A DNA stretch of 64,000 nt from Actinotalea alkalitolerans (GTDB lineage: Bacteria; Actinomycetota; Actinomycetes; Actinomycetales; Cellulomonadaceae), in the NCBI RefSeq assembly GCF_023369855.1, contig NZ_JAMBPP010000004.1:1-64000 (forward strand), written 5' to 3'. Shown piece after piece: positions 11,238 to 30,603 of the stretch. The notes under the pieces are model-generated. The model ran no database searches, was not told where the DNA came from, and saw only the letters and a program-made list of their open reading frames with translations. Both the position numbers and the translations under genes were made by a program. The stretch's first letter is position 1. Every line of letters begins with the position of its first letter.

Positions 11238-11681
11238 TCAGCGCGCCTCGGCCCCTGCCCGGGTCAGCCCGAACGGCGTCGCGGCCGCGCACGGACCTGT
11301 CGCGGCGGTCACGGTGAGCTGGGTCGGCGCGAACGGGTCGAACGTGCCGGGGATCACCACTGCGGCCTCGAAGCTGCCCTCGTCGTCGGTCCGAGCGGGC
11401 TGCATCGCCTCGGTGTGGAATCGCAGGGTGACCGTGCTGTCGGTGTCGAAGCCCCGCCCGGTGACGACCACCTGCGTGCCCGAGGGCGCCGAGCCGTCGC
11501 TCAACGAGATGCTCGGGTCGGTGCACGTGCCCCCGCCGAACGGTGGGATGAAGGGGAAGGAGATCGTCCCGACCTGCACGAGGAACGTCAGGATCGTCGC
11601 GACCGCCGCGAGCGCCAGCAGCCCGACGACGATCGGGTGGTCTGCGGGTCCGGAGCGTTCAGCGGCCACCGGGTCCACCAC
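11238..11681 (-). CDS. eCIS-locus membrane protein with Ig/TIG-like extracellular domain
   Basis: 147 residues. One transmembrane helix lies near the N-terminus (IVVGLLALAAVATILTFLVQV), followed by a linker (FPFIPPFGGGTCTDP) and a beta-sandwich-like region, ISLSDGSAPSGTQVVVTGRGFDTDSTVTLRF, typical of IPT/TIG repeats, with two cysteines (about positions 52 and 130). The orientation is probably N-in with the domain outside. It is the last gene of the injection-system operon and overlaps the preceding gene by 23 bases. The function is not known; membrane anchoring of the particle or cell-surface binding is my inference. Confidence 0.65.
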   Translation of the reverse strand: MVDPVAAERSGPADHPIVVGLLALAAVATILTFLVQVGTISFPFIPPFGGGTCTDPSISLSDGSAPSGTQVVVTGRGFDTDSTVTLRFHTEAMQPARTDDEGSFEAAVVIPGTFDPFAPTQLTVTAATGPCAAATPFGLTRAGAEAR

Positions 11682-12474
11682 GGACCAGGCGTGAGTATCG
11701 CCGTAGCGCGACGACGGCGAGCGTCGTGACCCCGATCAGCATGGCCACGAACATGGCGTCCCCCGAGAACACGGTGCCGACCAGCAGGAGCACGGCCACC
11801 AGCACCAGGATCCACCACGGCCGCAGCACCGGCTCCTGGACCAGGACCCCCCCGGTGCTCGCCGCCACGGTGCCGACCGCCTCGACGGTGTAGTCACGCG
11901 GCACCGACCGGCCGAGCCAGGTCGGTCGGGTGCACCGCAGCAGGAGCGGGACGGTGAACGCCTGGCCCGGGGCCAGGGCCAGGCGTGCACCGGACCGGTG
12001 GACCTCGTGGGCGAGACGACCCTCGCGGTCCCGGGCCACGAGCTCGAGGTCCAGCGGGGTGTTTCCCGGGTTCGCGACCACCAGGTGCACCAGCGCACGA
12101 CGCGCGGTGCCGATGGCGTGCGGGACGGGGGCCTGCAGCTCGGCCTGCGGGTGCGGGGCGACCTGGACGGGATGGCGGGCCTCTCCCCAGGCGCCGTCAC
12201 CCGCGATGGCCACGACGCGGATCTCCGAGGCGCCGGCCGGTGGTGCCGGACCGGTCGGGAGCGTGACGGTCAGCCCGACCTCGCGCTGCTCGCCCGGCCA
12301 GATGCGCACCTCGGACTCCTGGAGGGTCACCCAGCCCGCCAACGGACCGGTCGCCACGACCTCGTAGCGCTCGACCTCACGACCGGTGTTGCGCACGACG
12401 AGCCTTCCGCTCAGCCGGGAGCCGCCGGTCAGGGGGACCGTCGGACCGGTGAGCCGCACCTCGGGCGAGATCAT
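11659..12474 (-). CDS. eCIS-locus membrane-anchored protein with two Ig-like (NEW3/alpha-galactosidase-type) repeats
   Basis: 271 residues. Two beta-rich repeats of about 100 residues (SRLSGRLVVRNTGREVERYEV..., RALVHLVVANPGNTPLDLELV...) resemble the adhesion-like NEW3/CARDB folds. Near the C-terminus are two adjacent hydrophobic helices (WWILVLVAVLLLVGTVF and AMFVAMLIGVTTLAVVAL), followed by a basic tail. There is no signal peptide, so the repeats may face the cytoplasm. The start at 12474 gives the coupled overlap TGATG with gpI. Similar membrane proteins close actinobacterial contractile-injection clusters. An ORF open to 12900 in this frame is only antisense-style read-through of the gpI gene. 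Confidence 0.65.
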   Translation of the reverse strand: MISPEVRLTGPTVPLTGGSRLSGRLVVRNTGREVERYEVVATGPLAGWVTLQESEVRIWPGEQREVGLTVTLPTGPAPPAGASEIRVVAIAGDGAWGEARHPVQVAPHPQAELQAPVPHAIGTARRALVHLVVANPGNTPLDLELVARDREGRLAHEVHRSGARLALAPGQAFTVPLLLRCTRPTWLGRSVPRDYTVEAVGTVAASTGGVLVQEPVLRPWWILVLVAVLLLVGTVFSGDAMFVAMLIGVTTLAVVALRRYSRLVRGGPGGR

Positions 12475-13379
12475 CAGCCGGCCCCGTCCGCGGCCCCGGT
12501 GCCGGTGCCCTCGGCCGTCCCGGTCTCGGCCGAGCCGGGCGCGACGCGGACCGAGAGCTCGACCGTGAACCCCACCGGCAACGACGGTTCGAGCAGCCTC
12601 CTCAGGTGGTCGCCGCGCGAGCCACGGAAGTCCCCGGCCGACGCCGGCAGGCTCACCCGGACGGTCCGGTCGGCACGGGTGCTGAGCTCGGCGTCCGGGT
12701 CGAGGTCCCAGGAGGTCTCGCCCCCGTCGGTGACGAGCACCTCGTGCGGCGGCAGGTCGAGGTGCAGGGCGGCGACCGCCGCGATGCCGGGAACGGTTCC
12801 CCGTGACCCGTGCAGCTCCAGCGCGCGCGCGACCACTGCCCGGCGGCGACCGTGGCCCCACTCGGCCATGGTGTCCGCGCCGACCATCCACGCGAGCCAC
12901 CGCAGCACGTCGTCGGGGGCGGTCTCGATCGTGACGTAGGCCGCCAGGTTGTCGATGGTCGTGGTGAGCGGCTCGAGCACGTCGTCGAGACCGTCGAGGA
13001 ACCGGCGCAGCAGGGGGGCGGTCAGCTCACCCATCGTCTGCGGTCCGATCACCCCGTCGACCACGAGGCCCCGCTGACGCTGGAAGGCCCGCACGGCGCT
13101 CTCGGTGCGAGGCCCGAACGAGCCGTCGGCCGGTCCGGGGTCGTGCCGGGCGCGTGCCAGCGCGTCCTGCAGCCGGGCGATGCGTTCACCCTCGCTCCCC
13201 TGGGCGAGCATGTGCTCAGCAGTGACCCAGGTGGTTCCTCCGGCGAGCCCGTCCTCGACGACCTGCGCCGGGCGGAAGCGCTCAGGGTCCTGGAAGACCG
13301 TCGGCAGCCGTTCGAACATCGTCAGCCGGCGCGGTGGTTCGGGATGGAGCAGCGTCTCGAGCCGGGGAACCCGCGTCAT
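12474..13379 (-). CDS. eCIS baseplate protein, P2 gpI-like, with inserted peptidoglycan-binding domain
   Basis: 301 residues. The phage tail protein I core starts MFERLPTVFQD and resumes at LLRRFLDGLDDVLEPLTTTIDNLAAYVTIETAPDDVLRWLAWMVG, ending with ELHGSRGTVPGIAAV and a short beta domain. Between the two halves, residues about 57-118 form a PG_binding_1 domain (GSEGERIARLQDALA, DGSFGPRTESAVRAFQRQRGLVVDGVIGPQTM). gpI joins the wedge of the baseplate. The peptidoglycan-binding insertion is unusual and suggests contact with a cell wall. It overlaps gpJ by four bases (ATGA) and the next gene by one. Confidence 0.85.
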   Translation of the reverse strand: MTRVPRLETLLHPEPPRRLTMFERLPTVFQDPERFRPAQVVEDGLAGGTTWVTAEHMLAQGSEGERIARLQDALARARHDPGPADGSFGPRTESAVRAFQRQRGLVVDGVIGPQTMGELTAPLLRRFLDGLDDVLEPLTTTIDNLAAYVTIETAPDDVLRWLAWMVGADTMAEWGHGRRRAVVARALELHGSRGTVPGIAAVAALHLDLPPHEVLVTDGGETSWDLDPDAELSTRADRTVRVSLPASAGDFRGSRGDHLRRLLEPSLPVGFTVELSVRVAPGSAETGTAEGTGTGAADGAG

Positions 13380-15343
13380 GTCAGCACCACCGTGTGCCCG
13401 AGGCTGAGGGGCAGACCGTTGCGGGGCACGGCCAGCCGTGACGTCTCGTGGTCCTGCCCGTCGGTCAGCATCACCGACTCGACCCGCGCCACGCCCGGCA
13501 CCCGGTGGAGCACGGCGTACAGGTCCCCGACCTGGACGTCCGTGCCGAAGGGCCAGCCCGTGCCGTGCTCACCGCCGAGCAACGGGTGCAGCAGGCGGTA
13601 CAGCGCCGACGTCGCGGCGCCCGCGACCGCCTCGGCGTCCGACCCGGGGTCGGCTGCGAGCCGCACGGTCGCACGGCACGGGACGTAGCGGGGCGGGCTG
13701 ACCAGCACGCGCACACCCACCAGCCGTCGGTCGTCGAGGTACCTGGCCACGTCCGTCATGGTCTGCGGGACGTCGGTGAGGTCCGAGGTCCGCAGCGGCG
13801 CACCCAGACCGGCGTCGGGTGCGAGCTCGGGCACCACCAGGACACGCACGGACATGCTCGTCTCGGGGTCCCCCTCGGGCACGGCGTGAGCGCGCGCGAC
13901 GGCGCCCGACGCGTCACGGGCCATCTGCGCGAAGTCGGCGACGGTCACCGCCCGGGTGCGCTGGCGCAGGAAGAGGGGCACACGGGCCATCGCCTGCTCG
14001 ACCGTCTCGGGATCGACGCCACCGGTGGCCGCGTGCCGGTTCTCGACCGAGCGCACGTGCGGCACCGCGGACCGGAGCACCCGCAGCGAGGTGGCCCGGA
14101 CGTTGCCGCGCACGCCCCCTCCGACGCGGTACTCGGCCAGTCGGAGCGCCGCGGCCGCGGGCGGGACGGCCGCGTACCGGCGCATGCGCCCGTCGGACTG
14201 GCGCACCGCCACACCGAGCCTGATCTCACCGCCGACCCGGTCCAGCAGGTAGTGCCGGTCGCTCTCACGGCTCGCCTCGAAGCTCGTCACCGGCGTCCAC
14301 GGCTCGGGGTCCTGCCCCGCGAGCAGCAGAGGTCCCCCGGAGTCGTCCTCGACGACCGGCACGTTGCGCACCACGAAGGGCGCCTGGCCGTAGGTGCCGT
14401 CCGAGACCCCCACGACCTCGCCCCGGACCAGCTGGTCGGCCTGGATCGCGTCGACGCTCACGCCGATCGTCCGGGCCGTGATCCGGCCGACCGACGGTGA
14501 GCGCTCGTAGCTCGACTGCCCCGGCCGGGAGGTCGCGAGACGACAGCGCAACCACGCCGAGGTGGCCGTGCCCGGCAGGGCGATCCCGGTGTGGTCGGAC
14601 GGGACGTGCAGGTACACCGCACCGGGTCGGTTGAGCCCACCGGTGGTGTCGCGGTCGACCTCGCACACCTGCCAGGTGCCGCGGCCCCATGCCTCCCACA
14701 CCAGCGGCGGGTCGTCCGGCAGGACCCCGGAGCCGCGGTTCGGCTCGCAGTCCAGGTCGATCTGCACCGCGCACCCGGGCAGGGCACGCGCGAGCTCGAC
14801 CAGGAAGGCGGCCCCGGGGACGGGTACCCCGGTACCGAGCGCCTCGACGTGCTCGGTACCGGGAGCAGGGCGCGGGTCGCCCGTCCTGGGGCCTGGCGCG
14901 CCGACCAGGTGACGACCCACCACCTCGGCCCGGTACGCGCGCAGGTCCTCGGTGGTGCGGAAGGCGACCCGCTCGACCGTCGCGGTGCGTTCGGTCGAGA
15001 CCTCGACCCCGGCGCCCGCGAGCAGCGGCTCGTCCTGCGTGGCCGCCTCCCAGAACCGCGTCGGCGCGGCGAGCCAGAAGGTCAGCCGGGTCCGCGCCGA
15101 GCGGGCGGGCTGGAGCCGGATGCCGACCGCGTTCATCATCATCAGCAGCAGCGTCTCGGGCACACGGTTGAGGCGGAACAGCGTCTCGTCGACCATCTGC
15201 GCGAACAGCTCGATGAGCGTGACGCCGGGGTCGGAGACGTTGTGATCGGTCCACTCGGGGCACCGGTCGGCGATCCGACGCTTGGCGTCGTCCACCAGGT
15301 CCTGGAAGCGCCTGTCGTCGAGGTGCGGCACGGGGATGCTCAT
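13376..15343 (-). CDS. eCIS baseplate assembly protein, gpJ-like
   Basis: 655 residues. The N-terminus SIPVPHLDDRRFQDLVDDAKRRIADRCPEWTDHNVSDPGVTLIELFAQM is the typical start of putative baseplate assembly proteins of eCIS (Afp11/Pvc11 type). The C-terminus has RTRAVTVADFAQMARDASGAVARA and repeated beta-rich parts ending in a VQVGDLYAVLHRVPGVARVES segment shared with phage gpJ. The protein forms the baseplate wedges that trigger sheath contraction. The start at 15343 is fixed by GAGGAGCACCG upstream and by the four-base overlap with the gp25 gene. Confidence 0.9.
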   Translation of the reverse strand: MSIPVPHLDDRRFQDLVDDAKRRIADRCPEWTDHNVSDPGVTLIELFAQMVDETLFRLNRVPETLLLMMMNAVGIRLQPARSARTRLTFWLAAPTRFWEAATQDEPLLAGAGVEVSTERTATVERVAFRTTEDLRAYRAEVVGRHLVGAPGPRTGDPRPAPGTEHVEALGTGVPVPGAAFLVELARALPGCAVQIDLDCEPNRGSGVLPDDPPLVWEAWGRGTWQVCEVDRDTTGGLNRPGAVYLHVPSDHTGIALPGTATSAWLRCRLATSRPGQSSYERSPSVGRITARTIGVSVDAIQADQLVRGEVVGVSDGTYGQAPFVVRNVPVVEDDSGGPLLLAGQDPEPWTPVTSFEASRESDRHYLLDRVGGEIRLGVAVRQSDGRMRRYAAVPPAAAALRLAEYRVGGGVRGNVRATSLRVLRSAVPHVRSVENRHAATGGVDPETVEQAMARVPLFLRQRTRAVTVADFAQMARDASGAVARAHAVPEGDPETSMSVRVLVVPELAPDAGLGAPLRTSDLTDVPQTMTDVARYLDDRRLVGVRVLVSPPRYVPCRATVRLAADPGSDAEAVAGAATSALYRLLHPLLGGEHGTGWPFGTDVQVGDLYAVLHRVPGVARVESVMLTDGQDHETSRLAVPRNGLPLSLGHTVVLT

Positions 15344-15774
15344 CGGTGCTCCTCCTCGCGGATCTCGGCGCCCGTCTCGGGCGGGATCGTGTAGAAGGGG
15401 TGCACCAGGTTGCGCGGGTCGTTGGTGGCCCGCACCACGTACTCGACCTCGACGTACAGCACCGTCGGGTCGGTGGCGTCCGGCCAGGCGGTCACCCCGC
15501 GGACGTCGATCCGCGGCTCCCACATCGCGAGCGCCTCCTCGACGGCGCGCGAGACCATCCCGAGCGTGCGAGGGCTCGCGGAGGGGGAGAAGACCATCTC
15601 GTGCGCACGGCAGCCGAAGGTCGGGCGCATGGGCCGCTCTCCGGGGCGGGTGCTCAGCACGAGCCGGATGCTCTCCTCGATCTTGGCGGTGCCGCTGCGC
15701 AGCATGAGCGAGCCCCCGGGATCGGCCTGGAACGGGAAGGCCGGACCGGCACCGAGGAACCGGGCCTCAGCCAC
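15340..15774 (-). CDS. eCIS baseplate wedge protein, gp25/GPW family
   Basis: About 144 residues. Characteristic gp25 segments are IEESIRLVLSTRPGERPMRPTFGCRAHEMVFSPS, with the conserved EFGC-like turn replaced by TFGC, and LGMVSRAVEEALAMWEPRIDVRGV. In phage T4 and in type VI systems gp25 nucleates the sheath. No ATG fits; GTG at 15774 (GGGGGTGG upstream) is preferred, with GTG 15783 as an alternative. Both overlap the end of the PAAR gene, indicating translational coupling. Confidence 0.88.
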   Translation of the reverse strand: MAEARFLGAGPAFPFQADPGGSLMLRSGTAKIEESIRLVLSTRPGERPMRPTFGCRAHEMVFSPSASPRTLGMVSRAVEEALAMWEPRIDVRGVTAWPDATDPTVLYVEVEYVVRATNDPRNLVHPFYTIPPETGAEIREEEHR

Positions 15775-16171
15775 CTGGACCACCCCCGATGAGCACGGTC
15801 GGGACACCGCCCTGGACGGTCCCGACCGGGGCCAGGCACAGCTGGGCGCGAGCGCCCGTCGCTGCCATCCCACGCCCCTCGGCCAGCACGGTCGTGCTGC
15901 CCATCACCACCGAGGCGCGCTGCAGGGCGGGTGCGAAGGCGGGGTCGGCGGCGTGCAGCCCGGCGTGCGGGGTGAGCGAGTTCATTCCGGCCGAGCCGAC
16001 GACGGCGGCCGGGCTGCCCCCGATGAGGACCGACGTCGCGAGCCCCTCGAGCAGCGGGGCCGAGAACGGCAGCGGGGGTCCGGGCACGGCGGCTCCGCCG
16101 GGCCCGGGGATCAGGTGGCCCACGCACGTCCCCATGACACGGTCACCGGCCACCGCTGCGGGTGTCCCCAC
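15767..16171 (-). CDS. eCIS PAAR-domain spike-tip protein
   Basis: 134 residues, rich in Gly, Ala and Pro. It begins GTPAAVAGDRVMGTCVGHLIPGPGG and continues PLPFSAPLLEGLATSVLIGGSPAAVVGSAG, the repeated hairpin pattern of PAAR (DUF4150-like) proteins, which cap the VgrG trimer with a metal-stabilised conical tip and can carry effectors. There is no extra effector domain here. It sits 29 bases after the VgrG gene. Confidence 0.82.
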   Translation of the reverse strand: MGTPAAVAGDRVMGTCVGHLIPGPGGAAVPGPPLPFSAPLLEGLATSVLIGGSPAAVVGSAGMNSLTPHAGLHAADPAFAPALQRASVVMGSTTVLAEGRGMAATGARAQLCLAPVGTVQGGVPTVLIGGGPGG

Positions 16172-16200
16172 GATCCCTCCTCCTTGCCTGCTCCAGGCGC

Positions 16201-17913
16201 TCAGTTGATCCGGACGACGCCGCCACGCAAGGTGAGGGTGCCGTCGGCCTCGACGGTGATGTTCGGGGCGCTGACCGTGACCTCGGCGTCCCCGGTGAGG
16301 GTGATCGACCGGGCCGAGACCTCGACCGTGCCGGCGGTGACCTGCACGGCTCCGTCGGCCTTGACCCCGAGGTCACCCGTGGTGTCGTCGAGCCGGACCT
16401 GGACGGTGTCGTCACCCGTCGCGACGAGGATGCCGGACGGGTCGGCGTCGTCCAGGACGATGCGGTGACCGGCCCGGGAGACCAGCCCACGGCGCCCCGA
16501 CTCGCCCGACGCCCGGTCGACCGCCCCTGCCTCCAGCGGTGGCCGGTCCTGGCCGTTCCACAGGCCACCGATGACGTAGGGCCGGCGGACGTCACCCCTC
16601 TCGAAGGCGACCAGCACCTCGTCCTCGACCTCGGGCAGCAGCAGGGTGCCGCGGTCCGGGCCGGCACCGGGCTGGGCCACGCGCGCCCAGTCGCTCACGT
16701 ACCCCTCGGAGAGCCACGGCAGGCTGACACGGACCCGTGCGAGCGCCTCGTCGTCGTCGATGTCGGTGACCACCGCGGGGACGACGCCGCCGACCCCACC
16801 GCGGGCTCGACCGTTCCCGTGGGGCGGACCGGCCGCACCCGTCCCGCTGCCGGGCAGCCCGCCGAGGTCCACGGTGGTCCGGTAGCCGCGCACCGCGTCG
16901 AAGTGGTGCTGCGCGGCGGTCACGGTCCACCGTCCGCTGACCAGGTCTCCCGCCAGCCCCAGGCTGACGGCAGAGCCAGCCCGCAGGCGCGGGTCGCCGC
17001 TGCACACCGCCCGAGCGGTCGCGAAGGTGCTCCCTGCGGCATCGCCGAAGGCCCTCGCGACAGCGTCCGCCTCCTCCTGCGAGGAGATGGCGCGGTCGGC
17101 GACGACCAGGACAGGAGCTCCCACGCGCCCGGCGAGCTCGCCCGGCGCCACACCGATCTCCGTGCCCGGCGCAGCGACCGAGGCGGTCGCGACGAACACC
17201 TCCTTGGTCTGCACCGACCAGCCGCGGACCTCGACCTCGGCCGGCACCTCGGCGGAGGTGACCCGCGCCCGGAGCGCCTCGACGTCCCGGCCGAGCACCA
17301 GCTGTGCCGGTTCGGTCGAGGCGAGGGTCCCGGGCGAGGGCGCGGACGACGCCTGCTCGTGCGCGACGAGATCGAGGCGGCTTCCCCGCACCCGCAGCAC
17401 GCGGCCGCCCTCGCGGGCGCGGGAGGCGAGGAAGTCCCAGTCGGTCGAGTCGACCTGGGCCAGGTGCGCGTGGACGACACCGGGGTCGTCGACCGTCCCG
17501 ACGTCCAGACCCACCTCCTGCGCGACCGAGCGCAGGACGTCGCCGTCGGTGACGTCCTGGAAGGACCGGGTGCGCCGGAACCGGTGCAGGCGGTGCGAGA
17601 CGTCGTAGCCGACGACCGTGACGGTGCTCTCGGTGTCGGAGTACGCCACCTCGAGCGCGACCACCTCGACCTCCGCCAGGAGCTCGCCGGCGGGCGCTCC
17701 CACCGGGCCCGCCCGTACCGCGAGCCCCGCACCGATCGTCAGCCCGGTCGCGGTCAGCAGGTCGCGGTCGGCGTCACGCAGGACCACGCGCACCGAGGTG
17801 GGCACGCCCAGCCGCTCGTCGACGTCGACCTCGGCGAGGTTGCGTCGCAGGGCTGCGTCGGGCTCGGAGGAGTCGATCGTGACCTCGGGGACCGCGGACC
17901 AGGTCTCGGTCAT
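16201..17913 (-). CDS. eCIS spike protein, VgrG-like (gp27/gp5 fusion)
   Basis: 570 residues. The N-terminal 350 residues correspond to the gp27-like hub (late control D type; e.g. VVGYDVSHRLHRFRRTRSFQDVTDGDVL and STDWDFLASRAREGGRVLRV). About residues 370-450 form the gp5 OB-fold (GVVPAVVTDIDDDEALARVRVSLPWL, DWARVAQPGAGPDRG and LPEVEDEVLVAFERGDVRRPYVIGGLWNG). The C-terminus is a beta-helix needle with alternating V/T/G (VQVTAGTVEVSARSITLTG). It forms the trimeric central spike. No lysozyme or toxin domain is seen. It overlaps the LysM hub gene by four bases. Confidence 0.92.
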   Translation of the reverse strand: MTETWSAVPEVTIDSSEPDAALRRNLAEVDVDERLGVPTSVRVVLRDADRDLLTATGLTIGAGLAVRAGPVGAPAGELLAEVEVVALEVAYSDTESTVTVVGYDVSHRLHRFRRTRSFQDVTDGDVLRSVAQEVGLDVGTVDDPGVVHAHLAQVDSTDWDFLASRAREGGRVLRVRGSRLDLVAHEQASSAPSPGTLASTEPAQLVLGRDVEALRARVTSAEVPAEVEVRGWSVQTKEVFVATASVAAPGTEIGVAPGELAGRVGAPVLVVADRAISSQEEADAVARAFGDAAGSTFATARAVCSGDPRLRAGSAVSLGLAGDLVSGRWTVTAAQHHFDAVRGYRTTVDLGGLPGSGTGAAGPPHGNGRARGGVGGVVPAVVTDIDDDEALARVRVSLPWLSEGYVSDWARVAQPGAGPDRGTLLLPEVEDEVLVAFERGDVRRPYVIGGLWNGQDRPPLEAGAVDRASGESGRRGLVSRAGHRIVLDDADPSGILVATGDDTVQVRLDDTTGDLGVKADGAVQVTAGTVEVSARSITLTGDAEVTVSAPNITVEADGTLTLRGGVVRIN

Positions 17914-18641
17914 CGCCGCCCCCCGGTCCCCGCCCCGGTCGGCGGTTCAGGGACGACCAGCACGGTGCCAGGGGCGACACGCGCCGGGTCGTCGATCCCG
18001 CTGGCCTCGGCGATCACCCGCCACGCGTCGGCACGACCGTACTCCTGGTAGGCGATCACGGGCAGCGTGTCACCCGCGACGACCGTCCGTCGGCGCACGA
18101 CGCGATCGGAGCCCGAGGTCGGGTTGGTGCCGGGCAGGATCACCGGGATCTCCTCGAGCCGCAGCGCCACGTGGGCCCGGATCGGGGTCCCGTCCCTGCG
18201 GAAGAGCACGAAGCGCGCGCTCGCCGAGCTCAGGTAGGCGTCGAACGCCGCGGTACCGCCCCACGCGAACGAGATCACCGGGGGGCTCGGTCGGTTCTGG
18301 TCGATCGAGCGCCGCGAGGGCTGCGTCCACGACAGCAGCCGGTTCACGGGCTCGTCCACGCCGTCGGTGTCGCTCGCACGGGCGTCGAAGAACAGGTCGA
18401 GCCCGAGGGTCGCGCCGTTCGTCCCGACGAACTCCGGGATGGCCGCAGAGACGGCTCCGCGCACCGGCACCCGGGTCCACGACGCGCTCTTGGAGATCGT
18501 GTACTCGGTCGGGTTGAACTGGCAGTGCAGGGGAGGCTCGTCACTGTCCTTGAGCGAGAGCGTCGCGCGGTCCAGGCGGGTGGCGGTGACCCCGACCGAC
18601 ACGGCGCCGCGGCCCGAGACGACGATGCCGGCGCGGATCAC
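17910..18641 (-). CDS. eCIS tube-initiator/hub protein with C-terminal LysM domain
   Basis: 243 residues. The N-terminal CIS-tube-type domain (LSLKDSDEPPLHCQFNPTEYTISKSASWTRVPV, GATLGLDLFFDARASDTDGVDEPVNRLLSW) is followed by a C-terminal LysM repeat (VVAGDTLPVIAYQEYGRADAWRVIAEASGIDDPARVAPGTVLVVP). This is the Afp7/gp53-like protein that links the spike to the first tube ring in T4-like and eCIS baseplates. The GTG start at 18641 overlaps the previous stop as GTGA and has AGGAG upstream. Confidence 0.88.
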   Translation of the reverse strand: MIRAGIVVSGRGAVSVGVTATRLDRATLSLKDSDEPPLHCQFNPTEYTISKSASWTRVPVRGAVSAAIPEFVGTNGATLGLDLFFDARASDTDGVDEPVNRLLSWTQPSRRSIDQNRPSPPVISFAWGGTAAFDAYLSSASARFVLFRRDGTPIRAHVALRLEEIPVILPGTNPTSGSDRVVRRRTVVAGDTLPVIAYQEYGRADAWRVIAEASGIDDPARVAPGTVLVVPEPPTGAGTGGRR

Positions 18642-19075
18642 GGGGACTCCTGGTCGAAGCCGTGGTGCGCGAGCTCGAGGGTCTCGATCGCGACCTGACC
18701 CGAGCTCGCGCTGAAGGCGGGGCCGGTCCAGCGCACCGGGCACACGTCGCGCAGCGACCACGACACCACGGCCTGACCCGCCGCGTCGTACGCCGTGACG
18801 ACAGCCGTGGTCCGCCCGACCTTGTCACGCTGCCCGTGGAACCACGCCGCGACAGCCGCCGACGACGCGTCCAGACCCCGGGTCAGCACCAGGTTGGGGA
18901 AGCGCAGACGCCCGGGCAGGCGGTGCACGTACCCGTTCTGGCCGCCCTCGGCGTACTCGAGCACCTCGAACTCCGCGGAGAGCCCCTGGCACCCGGTGAA
19001 CACCCCCAGGCTCGTGTTGCTCCCGCCCTCGTCGATGACGACGTCGAACTGGACCGTGGTCCCGGGGTCGCCCAT
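18638..19075 (-). CDS. eCIS inner tube protein 2 (gp19 family)
   Basis: 145 residues. The gp19/T4-tube family fold is evident: VQFDVVIDEGGSNTSLGVFTGCQGLSAEFEVLEYAEGGQNGYVHRLPGRLRFPNLVLTRG, then VSWSLRDVCPVRWTGPAFSASSGQVAIETLELAHHGF. eCIS loci carry two or three such paralogues; this one, beside the hub genes, is probably the baseplate-proximal adaptor ring rather than the main tube. Start ATG 19075. Confidence 0.88.
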   Translation of the reverse strand: MGDPGTTVQFDVVIDEGGSNTSLGVFTGCQGLSAEFEVLEYAEGGQNGYVHRLPGRLRFPNLVLTRGLDASSAAVAAWFHGQRDKVGRTTAVVTAYDAAGQAVVSWSLRDVCPVRWTGPAFSASSGQVAIETLELAHHGFDQESP

Positions 19076-21256: not shown

Positions 21257-21696
21257 GCGAGCGTCATCCCCTCGTGGACGATGACCGCCTCTTCGACCAG
21301 GGCCGTGCTCGAGCCCGCTGAGAGCTCTCCGAGCCGCACCTGGGACACCCAGCAGTTGACCAGGTTGTACCGGGCCACCTCGCCGTGCTCGTAGTCGAAG
21401 AGCACGATGCTGGCGTTCTTCCGGGCGTCGTTGATCATGCCGTCCTGGACCTGCTTGAACCACTCCCACAAGGCGTTGCTCAGGGTGCGGCCCTTGCGAA
21501 GGGTGATGTCACCGAAGCTCACCGGTCCGGGCAGCTTCTTGACCACGGTCTTGCCACCCTTGGTGTTCTCCCGGTGCTCGATCACCCCGATCGAGCCCGA
21601 GACCCCGGAGACCTGGGCGAACTGCGCGATCGAGATGCCCTCGACCTCGAACTCGTACGCGTAGCTGGCGAGGACGTCGCCACTGGCCAGTGTCAT
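21253..21696 (-). CDS. eCIS major inner tube protein (gp19 family)
   Basis: 147 residues. ASYAYEFEVEGISIAQFAQVSGVSGSIGVIEHRENTKGGKTVVKKLPGPVSFGDITLRKGRTLSNALWEWFKQV is typical of phage tail tube proteins of the gp19 family; the C-terminal part ends SQVRLGELSAGSSTALVEEAVIVHEGMTLA. As the paralogue next to the sheath, it is probably the main tube, stacked as hexameric rings inside the sheath. It follows the sheath gene by 14 bases with AGGAG before the ATG. Confidence 0.93.
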   Translation of the reverse strand: MTLASGDVLASYAYEFEVEGISIAQFAQVSGVSGSIGVIEHRENTKGGKTVVKKLPGPVSFGDITLRKGRTLSNALWEWFKQVQDGMINDARKNASIVLFDYEHGEVARYNLVNCWVSQVRLGELSAGSSTALVEEAVIVHEGMTLA

Positions 21697-23472: not shown

Positions 23473-23937
23473 TCAGCCGTCCGGGTGCGGTGCGTCCTGG
23501 TCCGGGTGGGCGGCCATCGCCGGTGCCGTCGGTGGTCGGACCGCGAGCTCGACGGCTGCGCCCTGCGCCTGCTCCTCGAGGTGGTCGACGGTGTGAGGGT
23601 CGACCGGTACGGCGGGGCGGCCGGCCTGCTGCATGACGTGGACCAGCTCGTGCAGCAGCAGGACACGGTTGCCCAGGGTGCCTGCCGCGTCGTGCGCGTG
23701 ACGGATCGTGACGCGGTTCCCGCTCGTCAGCGCGTCGACCCCGGTCGCGTCCAGGACGGCGTCGTGCGCCGGGCCGGCATGCACGCGCACGTCACCGAGG
23801 TCGTGCCCGACGGCGCTCTGCAGGACCGCCCGCGTGTAGGCGTCGGGCTGGCGCCCGAGCTCTCCCCACGAGGGGGTCCTCGCGGGGCGGCGCAGGCTCT
23901 CGGCGAGGGGGGCGGCCCGCCGGGTGCTCAGGTTCAC
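23473..23937 (-). CDS. eCIS core DUF4157 protein (HELVH zinc-peptidase-like)
   Basis: 154 residues. It has the eCIS-core DUF4157 pattern: a short proline-containing arm, then DAYTRAVLQSAVGHDLGDVRVHAGPAHDAVLDATGVDALTSGNRVTI and LLLHELVHVMQQAGRP, with the HExxH-type zinc motif HELVH followed by the usual VMQQ. DUF4157 domains are hallmarks of eCIS loci and are often fused to effectors; here it stands alone. It could act as a cargo-loading or processing factor. A gap of ten bases follows the upstream hypothetical gene. Confidence 0.88.
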   Translation of the reverse strand: MNLSTRRAAPLAESLRRPARTPSWGELGRQPDAYTRAVLQSAVGHDLGDVRVHAGPAHDAVLDATGVDALTSGNRVTIRHAHDAAGTLGNRVLLLHELVHVMQQAGRPAVPVDPHTVDHLEEQAQGAAVELAVRPPTAPAMAAHPDQDAPHPDG

Positions 23938-23947: not shown

Positions 23948-24433
23948 TCACCTGCCGAGCAACGACATGAGCAGGCTCATCAGGGCGGGCTGGGCGGCGG
24001 ACAGCAGCCCGCCCGCCGCTTCTCCGGGCGTGGACTGCCCCGAGATGACGCTGCTCAGTCCCTGTCCGAGCGGAGCACCGAGGGACGAGACGGCCTGCCC
24101 GGCGGACCCCCCGAGAAGGCCTCCGAGAAGCCCGGCGCCCTGCTCGGCGAGTACGGGGGCCGCGGCTGCACCTGTTGCCTTGACCTGGGACAGCGCCCCC
24201 GAGCCGTCGCCGGACAGGACGGATGACGCTGCGCCGAGCAGTCCGGGGACGGCCGTCCCGAGGAGGTCGTCGAAGAACCCGGCCTGGGCAGGTGGGGTAC
24301 CCACGGGACCGTGCCGGTCGGCCAGGCCGAGGTCGGCAGGTCTGCTCACGGCGGGTGTGAGGACGGCGGCGTGGTTCGGGTGCGCACGGGTCGGGTGCGG
24401 CGCGGGCATGCGGGTCGGGTTGGCGACGAGCAC
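23948..24433 (-). CDS. Hypothetical Gly/Ala/Leu-rich eCIS-locus protein
   Basis: About 161 residues. The N-terminal third is His/Pro-rich (PTRMPAPHPTRAHPNHAAV); the rest is small-residue-rich, with FFDDLLGTAVPGLLGAASSVLSGDG and several GLLGGLLGG and SLLMSLLG stretches, suggesting amphipathic helices that could insert in or lie on a membrane. I do not recognise a family. GTG at 24433 is preferred because CTGGAGGG lies just upstream; ATG 24409 is an alternative. The position between the membrane zinc-ribbon protein and DUF4157 makes it a possible cargo or membrane-active component, but that is a guess. Confidence 0.55.
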   Translation of the reverse strand: MLVANPTRMPAPHPTRAHPNHAAVLTPAVSRPADLGLADRHGPVGTPPAQAGFFDDLLGTAVPGLLGAASSVLSGDGSGALSQVKATGAAAAPVLAEQGAGLLGGLLGGSAGQAVSSLGAPLGQGLSSVISGQSTPGEAAGGLLSAAQPALMSLLMSLLGR

Positions 24434-24554
24434 GGGGCCCTCCAGGTGGTCTCGGGACGGGTGTCCCCGATCGACACTGCCAGGCCGGCTCGTGGGGACA
24501 AGGCCCGCCCGCGCGGTCCTCGGGGCACCGTCGGCTGCCCTCGGGGGCGGCGGG

Positions 24555-25595
24555 TCAGGTGCACGCGAGGTGCTGGTTCTCCGGGATCCAGAAGATCGGT
24601 GGTGAGCCGTCCGTCGGTGTCGCGCCGCACTCGCGGAACGGCAGACCGCGGGTCCTGCACTCGCACAGGGCGTCGCCAGGCTGGGCGAAGGGACCGTCCT
24701 CGGGCGCGTCGAAGGTGAGCCACAACGGTTCACCGTCGGCGCACGGCGGGCGTCCTAGGTCATCGCCGCGTGCGAGGAGCACCGTGTCGCCCCAGTGCTC
24801 CCGCGCGCCGAGGTGGAAGGCGAGCACCCCGTTGGCCCCCACGCCACCCGGGAAGTCCTCGTCGACCCCGTCGGGCACCCCGATGCCGCTCGGGCCGGTC
24901 AGGTCGACCGGGGTGAACACCGTGCACTTCCCGCTCAGCTGGACGAGCCAGCCCGGAGCGGCGAGCAGGTCCTCACGGCGTTCGGCGTCGGCCGCGTCCA
25001 CCTCGTCGAGGAGGTCCCGCGCCTGCGAGGCGGGCAGGGCGAGGGCCTCCTCCGGGCTCAGGCGTGCCGCCGGGGCGTCCCGCTGCGAGAGCACGAGCGC
25101 CACCACGACGACGGCGGCCGCCAGGACGGTGACCACGACCACGACGGGCGTGCGTCGTGGTGCACCGCCGTCGTGCGGGTGCGGGGGAGCGGGTGGCACG
25201 GGAGCCGGCTCGGGCGGGGGAGCGGGTGGCACGGGAGCCGGCTCGGGCGAGGGAGCGGGTGGCACGGGAGCCGGCTCGGGCGGGGGAGCGGGTGGCACGG
25301 GAGGGGGAGCGGGCGGTACGGGAGCGGTTGTGCCCTCCCGACGGGGGATGACGGGGTCGAGCACCTCTGTGGGTGTGCCGCCGTCGTCGACCGGCGGTGC
25401 GTCGACGGCGGGTATGACGACGGTCGGGTCGACCTCAGGCCCGTCGGCGGCCTCAGGCCCGTCGGGACCGATCCCTGATGGCATCGCGGGTGTCGCGTCG
25501 TCGGTGGTCGCCGGCAGGGGCGTCAGCCGCCGCAGGCACACCGCGCAGCGGGTGGCGTCGTCCGGGTTCTCGTGCCCCAGCTCGCAGGTCCTCAC
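24555..25595 (-). CDS. eCIS-locus zinc-ribbon, proline-repeat, single-pass membrane protein
   Basis: 346 residues. The N-terminus RTCELGHENPDDATRCAVCLRRL is a four-cysteine zinc ribbon, common before transmembrane segments. It is followed by acidic linker sequence, then 11-residue Pro repeats (PPAPPPEPAPV), a transmembrane helix (PVVVVVTVLAAAVVVVALVLS, about residues 155-175) and an external domain with several cysteines (SGKCTVF, RPPCADGEP, LCECRTRGLPFRECG). GTG 25595 overlaps the AAA+ stop as GTGA. Sits between the ATPase and structural genes; a membrane dock or sensor for the particle is an inference. Confidence 0.7.
   Translation of the reverse strand: MRTCELGHENPDDATRCAVCLRRLTPLPATTDDATPAMPSGIGPDGPEAADGPEVDPTVVIPAVDAPPVDDGGTPTEVLDPVIPRREGTTAPVPPAPPPVPPAPPPEPAPVPPAPSPEPAPVPPAPPPEPAPVPPAPPHPHDGGAPRRTPVVVVVTVLAAAVVVVALVLSQRDAPAARLSPEEALALPASQARDLLDEVDAADAERREDLLAAPGWLVQLSGKCTVFTPVDLTGPSGIGVPDGVDEDFPGGVGANGVLAFHLGAREHWGDTVLLARGDDLGRPPCADGEPLWLTFDAPEDGPFAQPGDALCECRTRGLPFRECGATPTDGSPPIFWIPENQHLACT
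25183..25302 (-). repeat. Tandem 33-bp repeats encoding PPAPPPEPAPV units
   Basis: Three nearly identical 33-bp units at 25183-25215, 25216-25248 and 25249-25281 (one base change turns P into S), plus a partial fourth. They encode the rigid proline linker just before the transmembrane helix of the zinc-ribbon protein. Confidence 0.85.
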
Positions 25596-27670
25596 GGTCG
25601 CGCCTCCAGCAGGTGGGCGTACGGCCCGAAGTCGGTACGGACGCGCAGGCGACCGAGCTTCTCGAACTCGCGCTCGAGCGCCCGGACGAGCTCTGCCGTG
25701 CCGACCGGGTGACCGTCCTCGGCCGCGAAGCAGGCGGCCGCCACGACGGCGTTGCGGATGCTGCCCCCGGTGAGCTCGAAGGTGCGGGCGCAGAAGCCGA
25801 CGTCCGCCACCGGGTCCACCGGGACCCGGGCGAGGTGGTGCGCCCAGATCGCCTCGCGTGCCCCTGGGCCCGGCTCGGTGAGCTCGACGAACGCGTCCAC
25901 GCGTCGCAGGAACGCCTCGTCGACCTGGGACCTCAGGTTGGTGGCCAGCACGACGACCGCTCCGGCCGCCTCGATCCGTTGCAGCAGGTAGGACACCTCG
26001 AGGTTGGCGTACCTGTCCTGCCCTCCGCGGATCTCCCCCCGCTTGCCGAACAGGGCGTCGGCCTCGTCGAAGAACAGGACGCACGAGGCACCCTCGGCCG
26101 CCGACAGGACGGCGTCCAGGTTCTTCTCGGTCTCACCGACCCACTTGCTGACCACCTGGGCGAGGTCGATGGTGCACAGGTCGACACCGAGCTCGTGGGC
26201 GATCACCTCGGCCGCGAGGGTCTTGCCGGTGCCGGACCGTCCGGCGAAGAGCGCGCACACACCGCGCGAGCCGCCCCCTCGACCCAGGCCCCACTCGTCG
26301 ACCACGGCGTCGCGGTGCCGCACCAGTGCGACCAGCTCGCGCAGCCGTCGCTCGGTCGGCGCGGGCAGGACGAGGTCCCCCCACGACCGTCGAGGAGTCA
26401 GCCGTCGCACCTGGCCGTGGATCTCGACGGCGTCCTGGGCCCGGAGCGCGGCCTCGAGCTCCGGGCGGCCGGGCACCCGGTCGGGGAGGGCGAAGGCCCG
26501 GGCGAGGCGGACGGCTCGGTGCGCACCCGCACCACCCACGCGGTGCTGGGCGAGAAGAGCGAGGTCGGTGGGGTCGGTGCCCAGGCCCGTGCACAGCGCA
26601 CCCCAGACCTCCGTCCGGTGAGCGACCGGTGGGACGGCAAGCGTCACGCTGGGCAAGGGCTCGGTCGACCACGCAAGGGTCGGCGTGGTGCTCCACACCA
26701 CCGCGACAGGCAGCCGGTCGACCACCCGTGCGAGCCGGGCGCGCCCGGACGGCACCTGGACCGTCGCGTCGACGGGCCCGACGACCGGCACGCACCCGGT
26801 GAGCAGGCACTCACGCAGGACGTCAGCCAGGACGTCCCCACCCGGATCAGCGGCTGGGTCGGGTGGCTCGACGACCAGGGGCGTCGCCCCGGCAGCAGTC
26901 ACCCAGGCCGACGCCTCGGACGCCGGATCGGTCCCCGGTCGACCTGTCAGGTGGATGGTGCGGGGTCGTCCCAGGGCAGTGAGCGCCGGGTCCACCCGGG
27001 GCAGGGCAGGGGCGACGCGGAGGTGCTCGGCGAGGAGCGCGTCCGGCCGGTCGTCGCCGAGCAGGAAGGCCGCGACGCGCTCGGGGACCCGCACGGACCG
27101 GGCGGGCAGCGGCACACCGGCCCCGGCGACCTCGACCAGGCCGCCGTCAACCAGGGCCGAGCCGTCCGTGAGTGCCAGCCAGTCGCGGGGGTCGGCCGGG
27201 CCCGTCCCGCCGCGCGCGAGCTGGACCGCGAGCGAGACGGCCGCGCCACCCGTCGGCCCGTCGTCGAGGAGGGCGAAGAGGCGACCGAGGCGGCCGTCGA
27301 GGGCCGGGGAGAGCGCCACCACGAGGAGGTCCTGCTCGAGCGTGGTGAGTCCGAAGGCGCGGCTCAGGCGCCTGAGCCTGATGTCGACCCCCCGCTCCTC
27401 GGCCCGGTCGGTGTCCGCCTCGAGGCGTGCGGACATCTCCGCGCCGGCGCCGTCGGTCCCGGGTGAGGCCCCAGGTCGGTCGAGCAGCCACGCGACGTAG
27501 TCGTCGGAGAGGAACCGGCCGTCGGACGTGCCGTTCGGTCGCGGTTCGCCATCACCGGCCCCGCGCTCCGCGAGGGCCCGCAGGGCGACCAGCTCGAGCA
27601 GCGCGACGCGGCCGAGGAGATACCCCAGGGATGCGTCGGGCGGTGCCGGGGTGCCGCTGGACGAGGTCAT
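25592..27670 (-). CDS. eCIS AAA+ ATPase (Afp15/Pvc15 family)
   Basis: 692 residues. The N-terminal ~430 residues are a family-specific domain (PDASLGYLLGRVALLELVALRALAERG...). The C-terminal AAA+ module has Walker A GRSGTGKT (K483), Walker B CVLFFDEADALFG (about 535), sensor 1 VVVLATNLRSQVD and an arginine-finger region FLRRVDAFVEL. This ATPase is a standard accessory of eCIS and is thought to aid assembly or cargo loading. It follows the DUF4255 gene by 13 bases. The ATG at 27670 (MTSSSGTPAPP) is the first possible start. Confidence 0.93.
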   Translation of the reverse strand: MTSSSGTPAPPDASLGYLLGRVALLELVALRALAERGAGDGEPRPNGTSDGRFLSDDYVAWLLDRPGASPGTDGAGAEMSARLEADTDRAEERGVDIRLRRLSRAFGLTTLEQDLLVVALSPALDGRLGRLFALLDDGPTGGAAVSLAVQLARGGTGPADPRDWLALTDGSALVDGGLVEVAGAGVPLPARSVRVPERVAAFLLGDDRPDALLAEHLRVAPALPRVDPALTALGRPRTIHLTGRPGTDPASEASAWVTAAGATPLVVEPPDPAADPGGDVLADVLRECLLTGCVPVVGPVDATVQVPSGRARLARVVDRLPVAVVWSTTPTLAWSTEPLPSVTLAVPPVAHRTEVWGALCTGLGTDPTDLALLAQHRVGGAGAHRAVRLARAFALPDRVPGRPELEAALRAQDAVEIHGQVRRLTPRRSWGDLVLPAPTERRLRELVALVRHRDAVVDEWGLGRGGGSRGVCALFAGRSGTGKTLAAEVIAHELGVDLCTIDLAQVVSKWVGETEKNLDAVLSAAEGASCVLFFDEADALFGKRGEIRGGQDRYANLEVSYLLQRIEAAGAVVVLATNLRSQVDEAFLRRVDAFVELTEPGPGAREAIWAHHLARVPVDPVADVGFCARTFELTGGSIRNAVVAAACFAAEDGHPVGTAELVRALEREFEKLGRLRVRTDFGPYAHLLEARP

Positions 27671-27683
27671 GGCCGAGGGCGTC

Positions 27684-28253
27684 TCAGGGCAAGGGCTCCG
27701 CCGACGCGGCGAGCCGGGTCGCGGGCGGTGCGAGCACCGGGATCGTGCGGCTCGCGTGGACGGGGGCGGTGACGACCACCTCGAGCGACGGCTTGAGCTC
27801 GCCGCCGAGCGCCGTCCACAGGTCCGACATCGAACGGTCCTCGGCGAGCGGGAGCGCGACCTCGAGTCGGACGGTGGCGGGCTGCTCGGCGAGCCAGCCG
27901 GTCAGTGCTGCTGCCGGGACGGAGTCCAGGACGACCAGGGCTGCGAGGGCGTCCGCGAGCATCCGGTGCTCGTCATCGGGCCGGGCCGTCCACGCGGTGA
28001 TCAGGTAGGCGAGCCGGAAGAAGCGTGGGGGGACCCGCAGGGCGACCGTCCGGTCGTCCTCGACCACGGGCTCGCGGGCGACGCCCCGCTGGTCGAGGTC
28101 CTCGCGGATGTCGAAGAGGTAGACGTCGAGAGTGGGCCCCGAGCGGCGCGAGGCCCAGTCTCGTGTCGGGGCTTCCAGGCTCACCTCGGCTCCGTGGTTG
28201 CTCGCCCCCGGAGCGAGCAGCACCTGCAGCGCCGCGTCCACGTCGTCGATCAC
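27684..28253 (-). CDS. eCIS DUF4255 protein (Afp16/Pvc16 type tube-sheath cap)
   Basis: 189 residues. MIDDVDAALQVLLAPGA, then LDVYLFDIREDLDQRGVAREPVVED and RFFRLAYLITAWTARPDDEHRMLADALAALV, is the standard DUF4255/Pvc16 N-terminal pattern. Homologues terminate tube and sheath at the distal end. C-terminal part (LGGELKPSLEVVVTAPVHASRTIPVLAPP) is also typical. Gap of 52 bases after the LuxR-type gene. Confidence 0.9.
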   Translation of the reverse strand: MIDDVDAALQVLLAPGASNHGAEVSLEAPTRDWASRRSGPTLDVYLFDIREDLDQRGVAREPVVEDDRTVALRVPPRFFRLAYLITAWTARPDDEHRMLADALAALVVLDSVPAAALTGWLAEQPATVRLEVALPLAEDRSMSDLWTALGGELKPSLEVVVTAPVHASRTIPVLAPPATRLAASAEPLP

Positions 28254-28305
28254 GGTGGTCCTCCGGGTCGCGTGTCGGGGGCGTCAGGTGGCGCCCGCCC
28301 ACCCC

Positions 28306-28986: not shown

Positions 28987-29038
28987 GGTGGCCCCCTTGC
29001 TCGATCGGATGCCAGGGCGCCAGTGTGCGCGGTGGGCA

Positions 29039-29413
29039 TCACGGTGGCGTCACGACTGTGTCACCGGTGCCGCCCGCGGCCCGCTCCCCGCCGGCCGGGC
29101 GGTTCGGCGTGACCGGCGACGCGTGCGTTCGCGCGAGCCGCAGCGCCCGCCCGGGTACGACCTCGAGGTCGTAGACCCGCGCTCGGGTGCCCCCGTCGCC
29201 GGTCGTGTACTCGACCACGAGCTCGGCCAGTGGCGGGTGGGTCTTGACCAGGCCTGGTCGCACCTCGGCGCGGGTGACGGACGCCTCGGTACGCAGGCGC
29301 TCGGCGACCTGTGCGACGTCGACACCCGATGTCAGCGCGTCGAGCACGAGGCGGTCGACGTCGGGAGCGGGTTCGTCAGGGTCGCCGTCCGCGACGTCGC
29401 CCTCGGCGCTCAC
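29039..29413 (-). CDS. Hypothetical protein downstream of the protease gene
   Basis: 124 residues, acidic N-terminus (SAEGDVADGDPDEPAPDVDRLVLDALTSG) followed by an alpha/beta-looking region: VAQVAERLRTEASVTRAEVRPGLVKTHPPLAELVVEYTTGDGGTRARVYDLEVVPGRALRLART. I do not recognise the family. The GTG start (29413) overlaps the protease stop as GTGA, so the two are translationally coupled; an immunity, inhibitor or chaperone role for the protease is conceivable from this pairing only. Confidence 0.6.
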   Translation of the reverse strand: MSAEGDVADGDPDEPAPDVDRLVLDALTSGVDVAQVAERLRTEASVTRAEVRPGLVKTHPPLAELVVEYTTGDGGTRARVYDLEVVPGRALRLARTHASPVTPNRPAGGERAAGGTGDTVVTPP

Positions 29414-30603
29414 CGGAACGTCTCGCGCCAGGTGTCCGGGCCGACCACGCCGTCCACCTGGATGCCGCGGTCACGCTGGAGAGCGGTGCACGCGGCCTTG
29501 GAGAGCTGTCCGTAGAGCCCGTCGGCGACGAGCGAGTGGCCGATCGTCGACATGCGGGTCTGCCACTGGCGCACGTCCTCACCGCGGGTCAACGGTGGGA
29601 ACCGGAAGAAGCGACCGGGCCAGGGGGGTGGGGTCGTGGTGGAGCCTCCGCCGCTCAGCAGGTGGGCGAACTGCGTCGAGCGGGTGACGTTCTCTCCGCT
29701 GCACCCGGAGTCCGGGCAGACGTTCGAGCGCACGCACCCGCCCACCAGCACGTAGTCGGTCTCCCCGCTGACGAGCACGCCCTCGACCTGGTGGGTCGCG
29801 CTGCTGAAGACCGGCGACCCCGAGTTGCCGCCGTAGGTGTCCAGGTTGGCCACGAAGTGACCGGACGGCGTGTTGTCACGCACCCGGGCGTTGCCCGCGA
29901 TCTTCTTCGGCAGGCCTGAGGGGTGCCCGATGACGTGCACGGTCTCCCCGTCGGGGATCTTGCCCGAGGTGCGCACCGGCAGCGGCGAGTGGTTCGGCAC
30001 CGTCCGGTCGAGCCGGACGACGGCCCAGTCGTTGCCCCCGGCCCCCAGGGAGTGTCCCAGGACGGCGCTCACCCGGTAGATCTCGGTGCCGGCGATCCGG
30101 GTGGCCGCCGTGGTGGCGTTCAGCATCTGGTAGCCGAAGACGATCCGGACGTCCGAGAACGAGGCGGGGACGATGCAGTGCCCGGCGGTCACGACCACGT
30201 CCGGGCCGGCGAGGAACCCGGAGCAGTCGGCGATCGACGGCTGGTCCCGGAACGGCTCGGTGGGGCACAGGTTGAAGGCGGCACCCAGGGTGGGGCCGGT
30301 GAGCGTCGAGGTGCCGTCCCCGTTGTCGGTGAGGCTGGTCGAGGGGATGACGGCGACCGAGCTGTCGGCGTCGGCGAGGAGGGCGGCGTCGCTCACCTGG
30401 TAGACGTCCTGGCGGTCGTCGGTGCCGTAGATCGCCTTCTGGACCGTGCGCAGCGCGGTGGCCAGCTCGTCGTCGGAGGCCTCGACGACCTCGGGCGGCG
30501 CCGCCGCGGCGGCGGCCAGGGCGCGGCTCTTGGTGTCCCCGCCACGGGACCGCAGGGCTGCGAGGAGGAGGTCCGGATCGAGGTCGGTGAGGTTCTGGGC
30601 CAT
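29410..30603 (-). CDS. Trypsin-like serine protease with C-terminal peptidoglycan-binding domain, no signal peptide; candidate eCIS cargo
   Basis: 397 residues. The first ~110 residues are Ala/Asp-rich and not secretory (MAQNLTDLDPDLLLAALRSR). The S1-type fold has His142 in VVVTAGHC, Asp192 in GGNDWAVVRL and Ser261 in YGGNSGSPVF. After a Gly/Thr/Pro linker (about 315-330) comes a PG_binding_1 domain (TRGEDVRQWQTRMS, DGLYGQLSKAACTALQRDRGIQVDGVVGPDTW). The start at 30603 is chosen for AGGAG nine bases upstream; 30678 would add 25 residues and still no signal peptide. It is the first gene of the injection-system operon, so export by the contractile particle is a plausible inference. Confidence 0.8.
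   Translation of the reverse strand: MAQNLTDLDPDLLLAALRSRGGDTKSRALAAAAAAPPEVVEASDDELATALRTVQKAIYGTDDRQDVYQVSDAALLADADSSVAVIPSTSLTDNGDGTSTLTGPTLGAAFNLCPTEPFRDQPSIADCSGFLAGPDVVVTAGHCIVPASFSDVRIVFGYQMLNATTAATRIAGTEIYRVSAVLGHSLGAGGNDWAVVRLDRTVPNHSPLPVRTSGKIPDGETVHVIGHPSGLPKKIAGNARVRDNTPSGHFVANLDTYGGNSGSPVFSSATHQVEGVLVSGETDYVLVGGCVRSNVCPDSGCSGENVTRSTQFAHLLSGGGSTTTPPPWPGRFFRFPPLTRGEDVRQWQTRMSTIGHSLVADGLYGQLSKAACTALQRDRGIQVDGVVGPDTWRETFR

Follow-up and report, generated by a model that had tools for sequence, protein, structure and literature searches.

The closest described relatives of the locus reported here are the contractile injection systems (CISs) of Streptomyces, which belong to subtype IId. 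In excerpts of the papers on the Streptomyces coelicolor CIS (PMC10066040, PMC12237407, PMC10020575), the particles are described as cytoplasmic and not released (PMC10066040), and no fibre or tape-measure gene is recognised; loci of this subtype also encode membrane proteins, such as Sco4256-4258 (PMC10066040) and CisA, which is proposed to recruit the particles to the membrane (PMC12237407). The stretch analysed here, hereafter the window, comprises 64,000 nucleotides of Actinotalea alkalitolerans (NCBI RefSeq assembly GCF_023369855.1, contig NZ_JAMBPP010000004.1, positions 1 to 64,000), and its positions 11238-30603 are confirmed as a complete CIS locus on a single strand. The core is akin to that of S. 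coelicolor; what appears, from its sequence, to set the locus apart, and to be new, is a peptidoglycan-binding domain (PG_binding_1) inserted in gpI, a wedge protein of the baseplate.

Completeness and Kinship of the Core

Regarding its content, the locus is a minus-strand run of 22 genes (home-made gene calling) from 30603 down to 11238, with intergenic gaps of -23 to +56 bases and two exceptions of 121 and 175. A Pfam scan of all 22 proteins found the sheath, two gp19 tubes, the CIS_tube hub, VgrG (Phage_base_V), gp25, Baseplate_J, Tail_P2_I, the Pvc16_N (DUF4255) cap, an AAA+ ATPase, eCIS_core (DUF4157) and a LuxR-type regulator; PAAR fell below the cut-off (25.7 against 27 bits), as did DUF6760, and the LysM of the hub was weak (17.1 against 20.9 bits). 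Among the ten proteins submitted to NCBIfam, gpJ matched TIGR02243 (4e-111) and VgrG matched VgrG_rel (2e-143). The original prediction had assigned all core parts of an extracellular CIS (eCIS) to one strand, and the profiles place every part that it named, with sheath, tube, VgrG and gpJ among them. Its statement that capsid, terminase and integrase are lacking also holds: none was found by Pfam among 32 proteins, the 22 of the locus and those of ten flanking genes (3733-11193 and 30849-35420). These neighbours include no phage structural genes and are metabolic or regulatory (aminotransferase, polyketide_cyc, MerR/HTH_17, ArsD, alcohol dehydrogenase, molybdopterin oxidoreductase, FdhD, GGDEF/EAL, GntR and MFS).

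As for kinship, the best match in the Protein Data Bank (PDB) was an S. coelicolor CIS entry, rather than Afp, PVC or AlgoCIS, for seven of the seven core proteins compared, with E-values of 9e-145 for gpJ, 3e-125 for the sheath, 4e-73 for VgrG, 2e-44 for the cap, 5e-41 for the hub and 9e-20 for tube 1; gpI reached 9e-48 as a seven-row profile and 1.6e-12 alone, the latter against S. coelicolor Cis12. The S. coelicolor origin is documented for entry 9gtp, and for 9gtr and 9gts it is taken from the entry series. These matches place the locus with the kind described as cytoplasmic and fibre-less (subtype IId). As in that subtype, sheath, tubes, hub, spike, gp25, gpJ, gpI, cap and AAA+ ATPase share one locus, membrane proteins are encoded beside them, and no fibre or tape-measure gene is recognised; by Pfam, neither fibre families nor lysis genes were found among the 22 proteins. 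Three differences from S. coelicolor stand out: gpI carries the PG_binding_1 insert; the gene of an anchor-like protein lies between the AAA+ and DUF4157 genes, whereas the S. coelicolor anchor follows the baseplate genes; and a PAAR protein is encoded, which the excerpts report for S. venezuelae and not for S. coelicolor.

The Putative Wall-Binding Insert of gpI

In gpI, PG_binding_1 matches residues 44-97 (6e-18), after the LP segment at the N-terminus and ahead of the Tail_P2_I core, and the insert extends over about residues 37-101. The solved structures related to the insert are those of wall enzymes or of proteins that bind the wall (1lbu at 7e-7, 6tci and others), and the rest of gpI is what matches S. 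coelicolor Cis12, a protein of 190 amino acids (aa) in its solved form. The same fusion occurs in Serinicoccus sediminis; between the two proteins, 47 of 65 residues are identical in the insert (72%), as against 73 of 156 in the core (47%) and 16 of 36 in the N-terminus (44%), so that the peptidoglycan (PG) domain appears to be under constraint.

The fusion is rare in the collections searched. When gpI of the window and of Serinicoccus was aligned with 17 others from 17 loci (that of L043 called gpI by position only), only the first two of the 19 were long enough for the insert; the others have 168-199 aa, and the five of them shown in full have a gap where it would sit. Among 396 genomes of the phylum, 25 had a gpI match at E 1e-14, and only that of the window spans both halves; the same is true of S. 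sediminis alone among ten genomes with a match, out of 186 of the Serinicoccus family. Since these searches scored at most six (phylum) and 13 (Serinicoccus family) candidates per genome, further fusions may have been missed. When a hidden Markov model was made from the four PG domains found in the window and Serinicoccus loci, its sole matches in a set of 378 proteins (the 22 of the window and those of 23 fetched stretches) were these four, which match by construction; a divergent PG domain could escape such a search. In phage and plasmid records no match covers 80% of gpI (0 of 55 and 0 of 51 records with a match, respectively); in viral contigs, three loci match the gpI query (A8), all inside query residues 37-120, and no relative of tube 1 was found.

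A literature search limited to open-licence PMC papers found neither a gpI/PG_binding fusion nor a Serinicoccus CIS. An excerpt of PMC11297309 reports 68 proteins predicted to be eCIS toxins that carry a peptidoglycan-binding domain; to that extent wall-binding cargo is already known, whereas a wall-binding wedge was not found in print. The fusion suggests how such machines might be aimed at the cell wall: it bears on target choice by fibre-less cytoplasmic injection systems and on their handling of the wall as well as the membrane, it ties them to the wall enzymes encoded by related loci, and, being built into the Tail_P2_I wedge, it can be probed by direct experiment outside the family of Streptomyces.

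Genes of the Locus and Membrane Modules

The genes are listed below in the order of the run (TM, transmembrane helix).

29410..30603, minus: opening gene, serine protease of the trypsin type, PG_binding_1 at its C-terminus (Trypsin_2 3e-17, PG_binding_1 1.8e-10)
29039..29413, minus: 124-aa protein (no Pfam, PHROG, PADLOC or plasmid match)
28306..28986, minus: LuxR-type regulator (GerE 3.7e-13; 63% to Serinicoccus)
27684..28253, minus: Pvc16/DUF4255 cap (Pvc16_N 4.5e-35; 9gts 2e-44)
25592..27670, minus: AAA+ ATPase with winged-helix domain (AAA 2.3e-25, WHD 4e-17)
24555..25595, minus: Pro-rich protein with a zinc-ribbon-like N-terminus, one TM and a C-terminal domain rich in Cys (TM 151-169; no Pfam family)
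23948..24433, minus: 161-aa Gly/Ala/Leu/Ser-rich hydrophobic protein, cargo candidate, start uncertain (Sle1 position)
23473..23937, minus: eCIS_core (DUF4157) protein (eCIS_core 3e-17; Sle2 position)
21711..23297, minus: sheath (Phage_sheath_1C 2.2e-16; 8bky/9gtp 3e-125)
21253..21696, minus: inner tube 1 (gp19 2.6e-32; 8bl4/9gtp 8.7e-20)
20846..21256, minus: tail-assembly-chaperone-like protein with C-terminal Cys pairs (phrog_508 3e-7)
20703..20849, minus: DUF6760-like small protein (PF20546 1.2e-4, 22.5 bits against a cut-off of 27)
19079..20716, minus: Pro/Ala-rich protein, start uncertain (eCIS_core 0.0084, below cut-off)
18638..19075, minus: inner tube 2 / tube initiator (gp19 3e-31)
17910..18641, minus: LysM-containing hub, CIS_tube (CIS_tube 1.4e-22; 9gtp_P 4.9e-41)
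16201..17913, minus: VgrG spike (Phage_base_V 8.4e-27; 9gtr_q 4.2e-73)
15767..16171, minus: PAAR tip (PAAR_motif 1.4e-5, below cut-off; 71% to Serinicoccus)
15340..15783, minus: gp25 baseplate wedge (GPW_gp25 1.4e-24)
13376..15343, minus: gpJ baseplate wedge, Cis11 (Baseplate_J 4.9e-13; TIGR02243 4e-111; 9gtp_1K 9e-145)
12474..13319, minus: gpI baseplate wedge, Cis12, Tail_P2_I, with PG_binding_1 insert (PG_binding_1 6.1e-18, Tail_P2_I 3.9e-10; 9gtp_E, 1lbu)
11659..12474, minus: Ig-like region and C-terminal TM pair, candidate Sco4256-type effector (kin at 1e-8 and 4e-13; TMs by hydropathy)
11238..11681, minus: TM helix and TIG/IPT-like domain (TIG 0.0042, below cut-off; TM 17-35)

Three parts go beyond those of the original prediction: the CHCC zinc-ribbon-like N-terminus of the 24555 protein, the protease with its PG_binding_1 tail, and the weak eCIS_core match at the end of the 19079-20716 protein, whose C-terminal end is conserved, with similarity in the Serinicoccus and Cellulomonas loci.

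Two of the membrane genes look like Streptomyces counterparts, 11659 by sequence kinship and 24555 by layout only. The 24555 protein, which probably starts at 25595, shares with its Serinicoccus homologue C4, H8, C17, C20 and six later Cys. Hydropathy and a low-confidence model give it the arrangement of CisA, with a Cys-rich N-terminal motif, a disordered linker, one TM and a C-terminal domain; it differs in its Cys-rich putative ectodomain, its gene position and the lack of detectable sequence kinship to proteins in the CisA position. In CisA, the disordered N-terminal part faces the cytoplasm and the C-terminal domain lies outside. Relatives occur in four of 396 genomes of the order, its own included, and the other three are weak, with internal stops. 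Three of four CisA-position proteins were scanned: all have zinc ribbons, and their C-terminal parts match the NADase_transloc F5/8 type C family at 27.1, 27.2 (cut-off 27) and 23.9 bits, which makes this domain a possible identity for the CisA ectodomain. The three are the zinc-ribbon/TM proteins L054:28185-29294, L037:48-1805 and L036:18655-19929.

The 11659 protein is akin to L054:7210-8568 (1e-8), whose gene adjoins that of the LuxR regulator in a CIS locus on a Streptomyces plasmid, and to the product of a like-placed gene in L033 (4e-13). Both have an Ig-like region, a TM and a C-terminal part, the layout that excerpts of PMC10066040 and PMC10020575 give for the CIS-associated effector Sco4256, with its N-terminal Ig/chaperone-like domain ahead of a TM, and through its kinship to these two proteins 11659 is a candidate effector of that type; it ends shortly past its TM pair, and the separate TM and TIG gene comes next.

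The third candidate, 23948, has no family match in Pfam, PHROG or NCBIfam, and shares 64% identity across 98 residues with a Serinicoccus protein of 109 aa. With the DUF4157 gene 23473 it forms a pair just upstream of the sheath, ordered like Sle1/Sle2 of Streptomyces lividans, described in an excerpt of PMC13277306 as a hydrophobic protein, with a long N-terminal coiled coil (440 aa) akin to tape measure proteins, followed by a DUF4157 protein; the window pair differs in running in the same direction as the structural genes. A glycine zipper was considered and rejected: GxxxG occurs seven times in 23948 against a shuffle mean of 4.2 (reached by 0.083 of shuffles) and eight times in the Serinicoccus counterpart against 6.8 (0.35).

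The original prediction had contrasted the locus with the Streptomyces particles through both its membrane and its wall-binding modules. The first half of this contrast falls away, since Streptomyces IId loci also encode membrane proteins and those of the window seem mostly shared with them; the second half stands, as the solved Streptomyces Cis12 matches only the part of gpI outside the insert and no PG domain was found in the other gpI proteins compared, and the distinguishing mark would thus be the wall-binding wedge.

Wall-Related Proteins of the Locus and of Related Loci

The protease (29410-30603) has no hydrophobic stretch in a hydropathy script and no evident signal peptide, and its gene overlaps the next by four bases. 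Over residues 46-316 the enzyme shares 51% identity with a serine protease that a plasmid of Bradyrhizobium encodes next to C25 and S8 peptidase genes; the 124-aa protein has no relatives in plasmids. In Cellulomonas, the seven proteins scanned that adjoin the cap gene (L046-L050, L052, L053) all combine SLT_3 with NlpC/P60; they start almost at the enzyme domain, with no evident signal peptide, and the L051 protein, outside the seven, looks like them. The leaderless state was judged by eye, with hydropathy added for the window proteins. In Serinicoccus, a 244-aa PG_binding_1 protein (2.5e-16) is encoded about 360 bases downstream of the Ig-TM gene; it matches Extensin-like_C weakly (0.0098), and HxxxxxxD and HxH, as in a wall peptidase, can be picked out by eye.

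Proposed Mechanism and Alternatives

The reading that we favour, at slightly better than even confidence, is that of a subtype-IId-like cytoplasmic CIS, recruited to the membrane, whose gpI wedge docks on peptidoglycan, either the producer's or a neighbour's. Judging from the kinship of the core, the particles would assemble in the cytoplasm, and the one-TM zinc-ribbon protein 24555, by its layout, would draw them to the membrane's inner face. On firing, the tube would deliver the Ig-TM protein 11659 into the membrane, by analogy with Sco4256, and perhaps also the hydrophobic 23948 with the DUF4157 protein 23473, by analogy with Sle1/Sle2. The PG domains of the wedges would dock the baseplate on the wall instead of tail fibres; there may be up to six per particle, since excerpts on S. 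coelicolor describe one Cis12 per wedge (PMC12237407) and six wedges (PMC10020575). Either a self-directed breach of the wall or adsorption to neighbours is possible.

Several points weigh against this reading. The predicted structure of the gpI insert has low scores (pLDDT about 50-64), and the insert may bind protein or be vestigial. The ectodomain model of 24555 is unusable; hhalign gave no alignment of this protein with the four CisA-position proteins, a comparison of low power as the profiles held two and four sequences; and its gene does not lie just downstream of the baseplate genes like that of CisA. The 23948 protein, at 161 aa, is far shorter than Sle1, with no room for the long coiled coil. 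Fibres may yet be present, as the search for them used Pfam families and no eBAP profiles. Finally, the protease domain has no match in Serinicoccus and, at E 1e-25, is found only in its own genome among 200 of the family, and in none of the other 199, so that its link to the machine is weak.

A bolder version is possible but doubtful: in a rare, deep actinobacterial lineage the PG module of the wedge would have replaced fibres, giving a machine that is fired from the cytoplasm, docks on the wall and breaches it, and that exports or delivers the leaderless wall enzymes encoded by its own locus and by sister loci.

It is unlikely that the locus makes a released, fibre-less killing particle, tailocin-like, freed by lysis, whose PG wedge adsorbs to Gram-positive neighbours before membrane-active cargo is fired. 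The PAAR tip and the placing of the wall-binding domain would suit it, the Tail_P2_I subunit being modelled as a fibre adaptor in some eCISs (excerpt of PMC12923769), and diffocin is an example of a contractile particle that kills a Gram-positive species (excerpt of PMC10996793); however, the closest studied relatives stay in the cytoplasm, the operon includes the anchor-like 24555, and the Pfam scan found no lysis genes. Less probable again is a self-killing CIS of the usual Streptomyces type, whose insert would serve as a protein-protein contact or a decoration of the baseplate and bind no wall. The core and membrane genes do have Streptomyces counterparts and a fold name alone is no proof of binding, but the other parts of gpI are less conserved than the insert, wall enzymes are the insert's closest relatives of solved structure, and related loci carry wall-enzyme or wall-binding genes. 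A contractile prophage remnant is very improbable: the gp19, sheath and baseplate genes are phage-derived, but the locus and its scanned flanks have no capsid, terminase or integrase, none of the 930 phage records with a sheath match covers 80% of the sheath, and the Pvc16 cap, DUF4157 and AAA+ genes are marks of a CIS.

Lineage and Genomic Setting

A scan of a named genome collection for the tube 1 pattern gave ten loci, with S. sediminis at 88% identity and the others at no more than 54%. In the gpJ and VgrG trees (20 rows, 19 of them different; midpoint root; deeper forks partly weak), the window and Serinicoccus group together with support of 100 in both; the Cellulomonas rows, the group that includes Streptomyces and the second-locus pair fall elsewhere. 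The S. sediminis locus (L044) matches 19 of the 22 window genes in order, 24555, 23948 and the gpI fusion included, with gpJ at 63% identity; it has no match to the protease, the 124-aa or the TIG protein, and differs also in its downstream 244-aa protein. The Cellulomonas loci (L046-L053) have the same core, PAAR and, in most, a LuxR-type regulator upstream; they differ in a gpI that lacks the insert, in the SLT_3 and NlpC/P60 protein and in a protein of about 1100-1300 aa between cap and ATPase, with a DUF4157 match in most. A sheath match was found in 35 of 149 genomes of relatives.

The window genome also holds a second, distantly related CIS (contig C35:50143-82142; L041, L042), with a 2108-aa protein and, nearby, proteins of 868 aa (kin to 11659) and 740 aa.

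Regarding the setting, the locus is part of a segment next to tRNA-Arg: a tRNA-Arg(CCG)-GntR pair lies at 33 kb in the window, and the genes on the other side of the segment end at 5.9 kb. In three relatives of the genus (L100-L102) the same 5.9-kb genes stand one or two genes from the tRNA-Arg(CCG)-GntR pair and the segment between is absent; in L099 other genes take its place. Two relatives (L103, L104) carry the set of dehydrogenase, molybdopterin and FdhD genes (6.6-11.2 kb in the window) at another place, without the CIS, so that the segment may be composite. Neither an integrase, among the ten flanking genes, nor an attachment-site repeat of the tRNA-Arg end was found. A GGDEF/EAL gene (30849-33077, plus strand) is divergent from the protease gene. 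At the other end, a c-di-GMP-I riboswitch (5614-5689, plus strand) is directly followed by a small MerR/HTH_17 gene (5706-5939, plus strand), which we take to be BldC-like, and such a riboswitch is also found near the orthologue of this gene in L100-L102.

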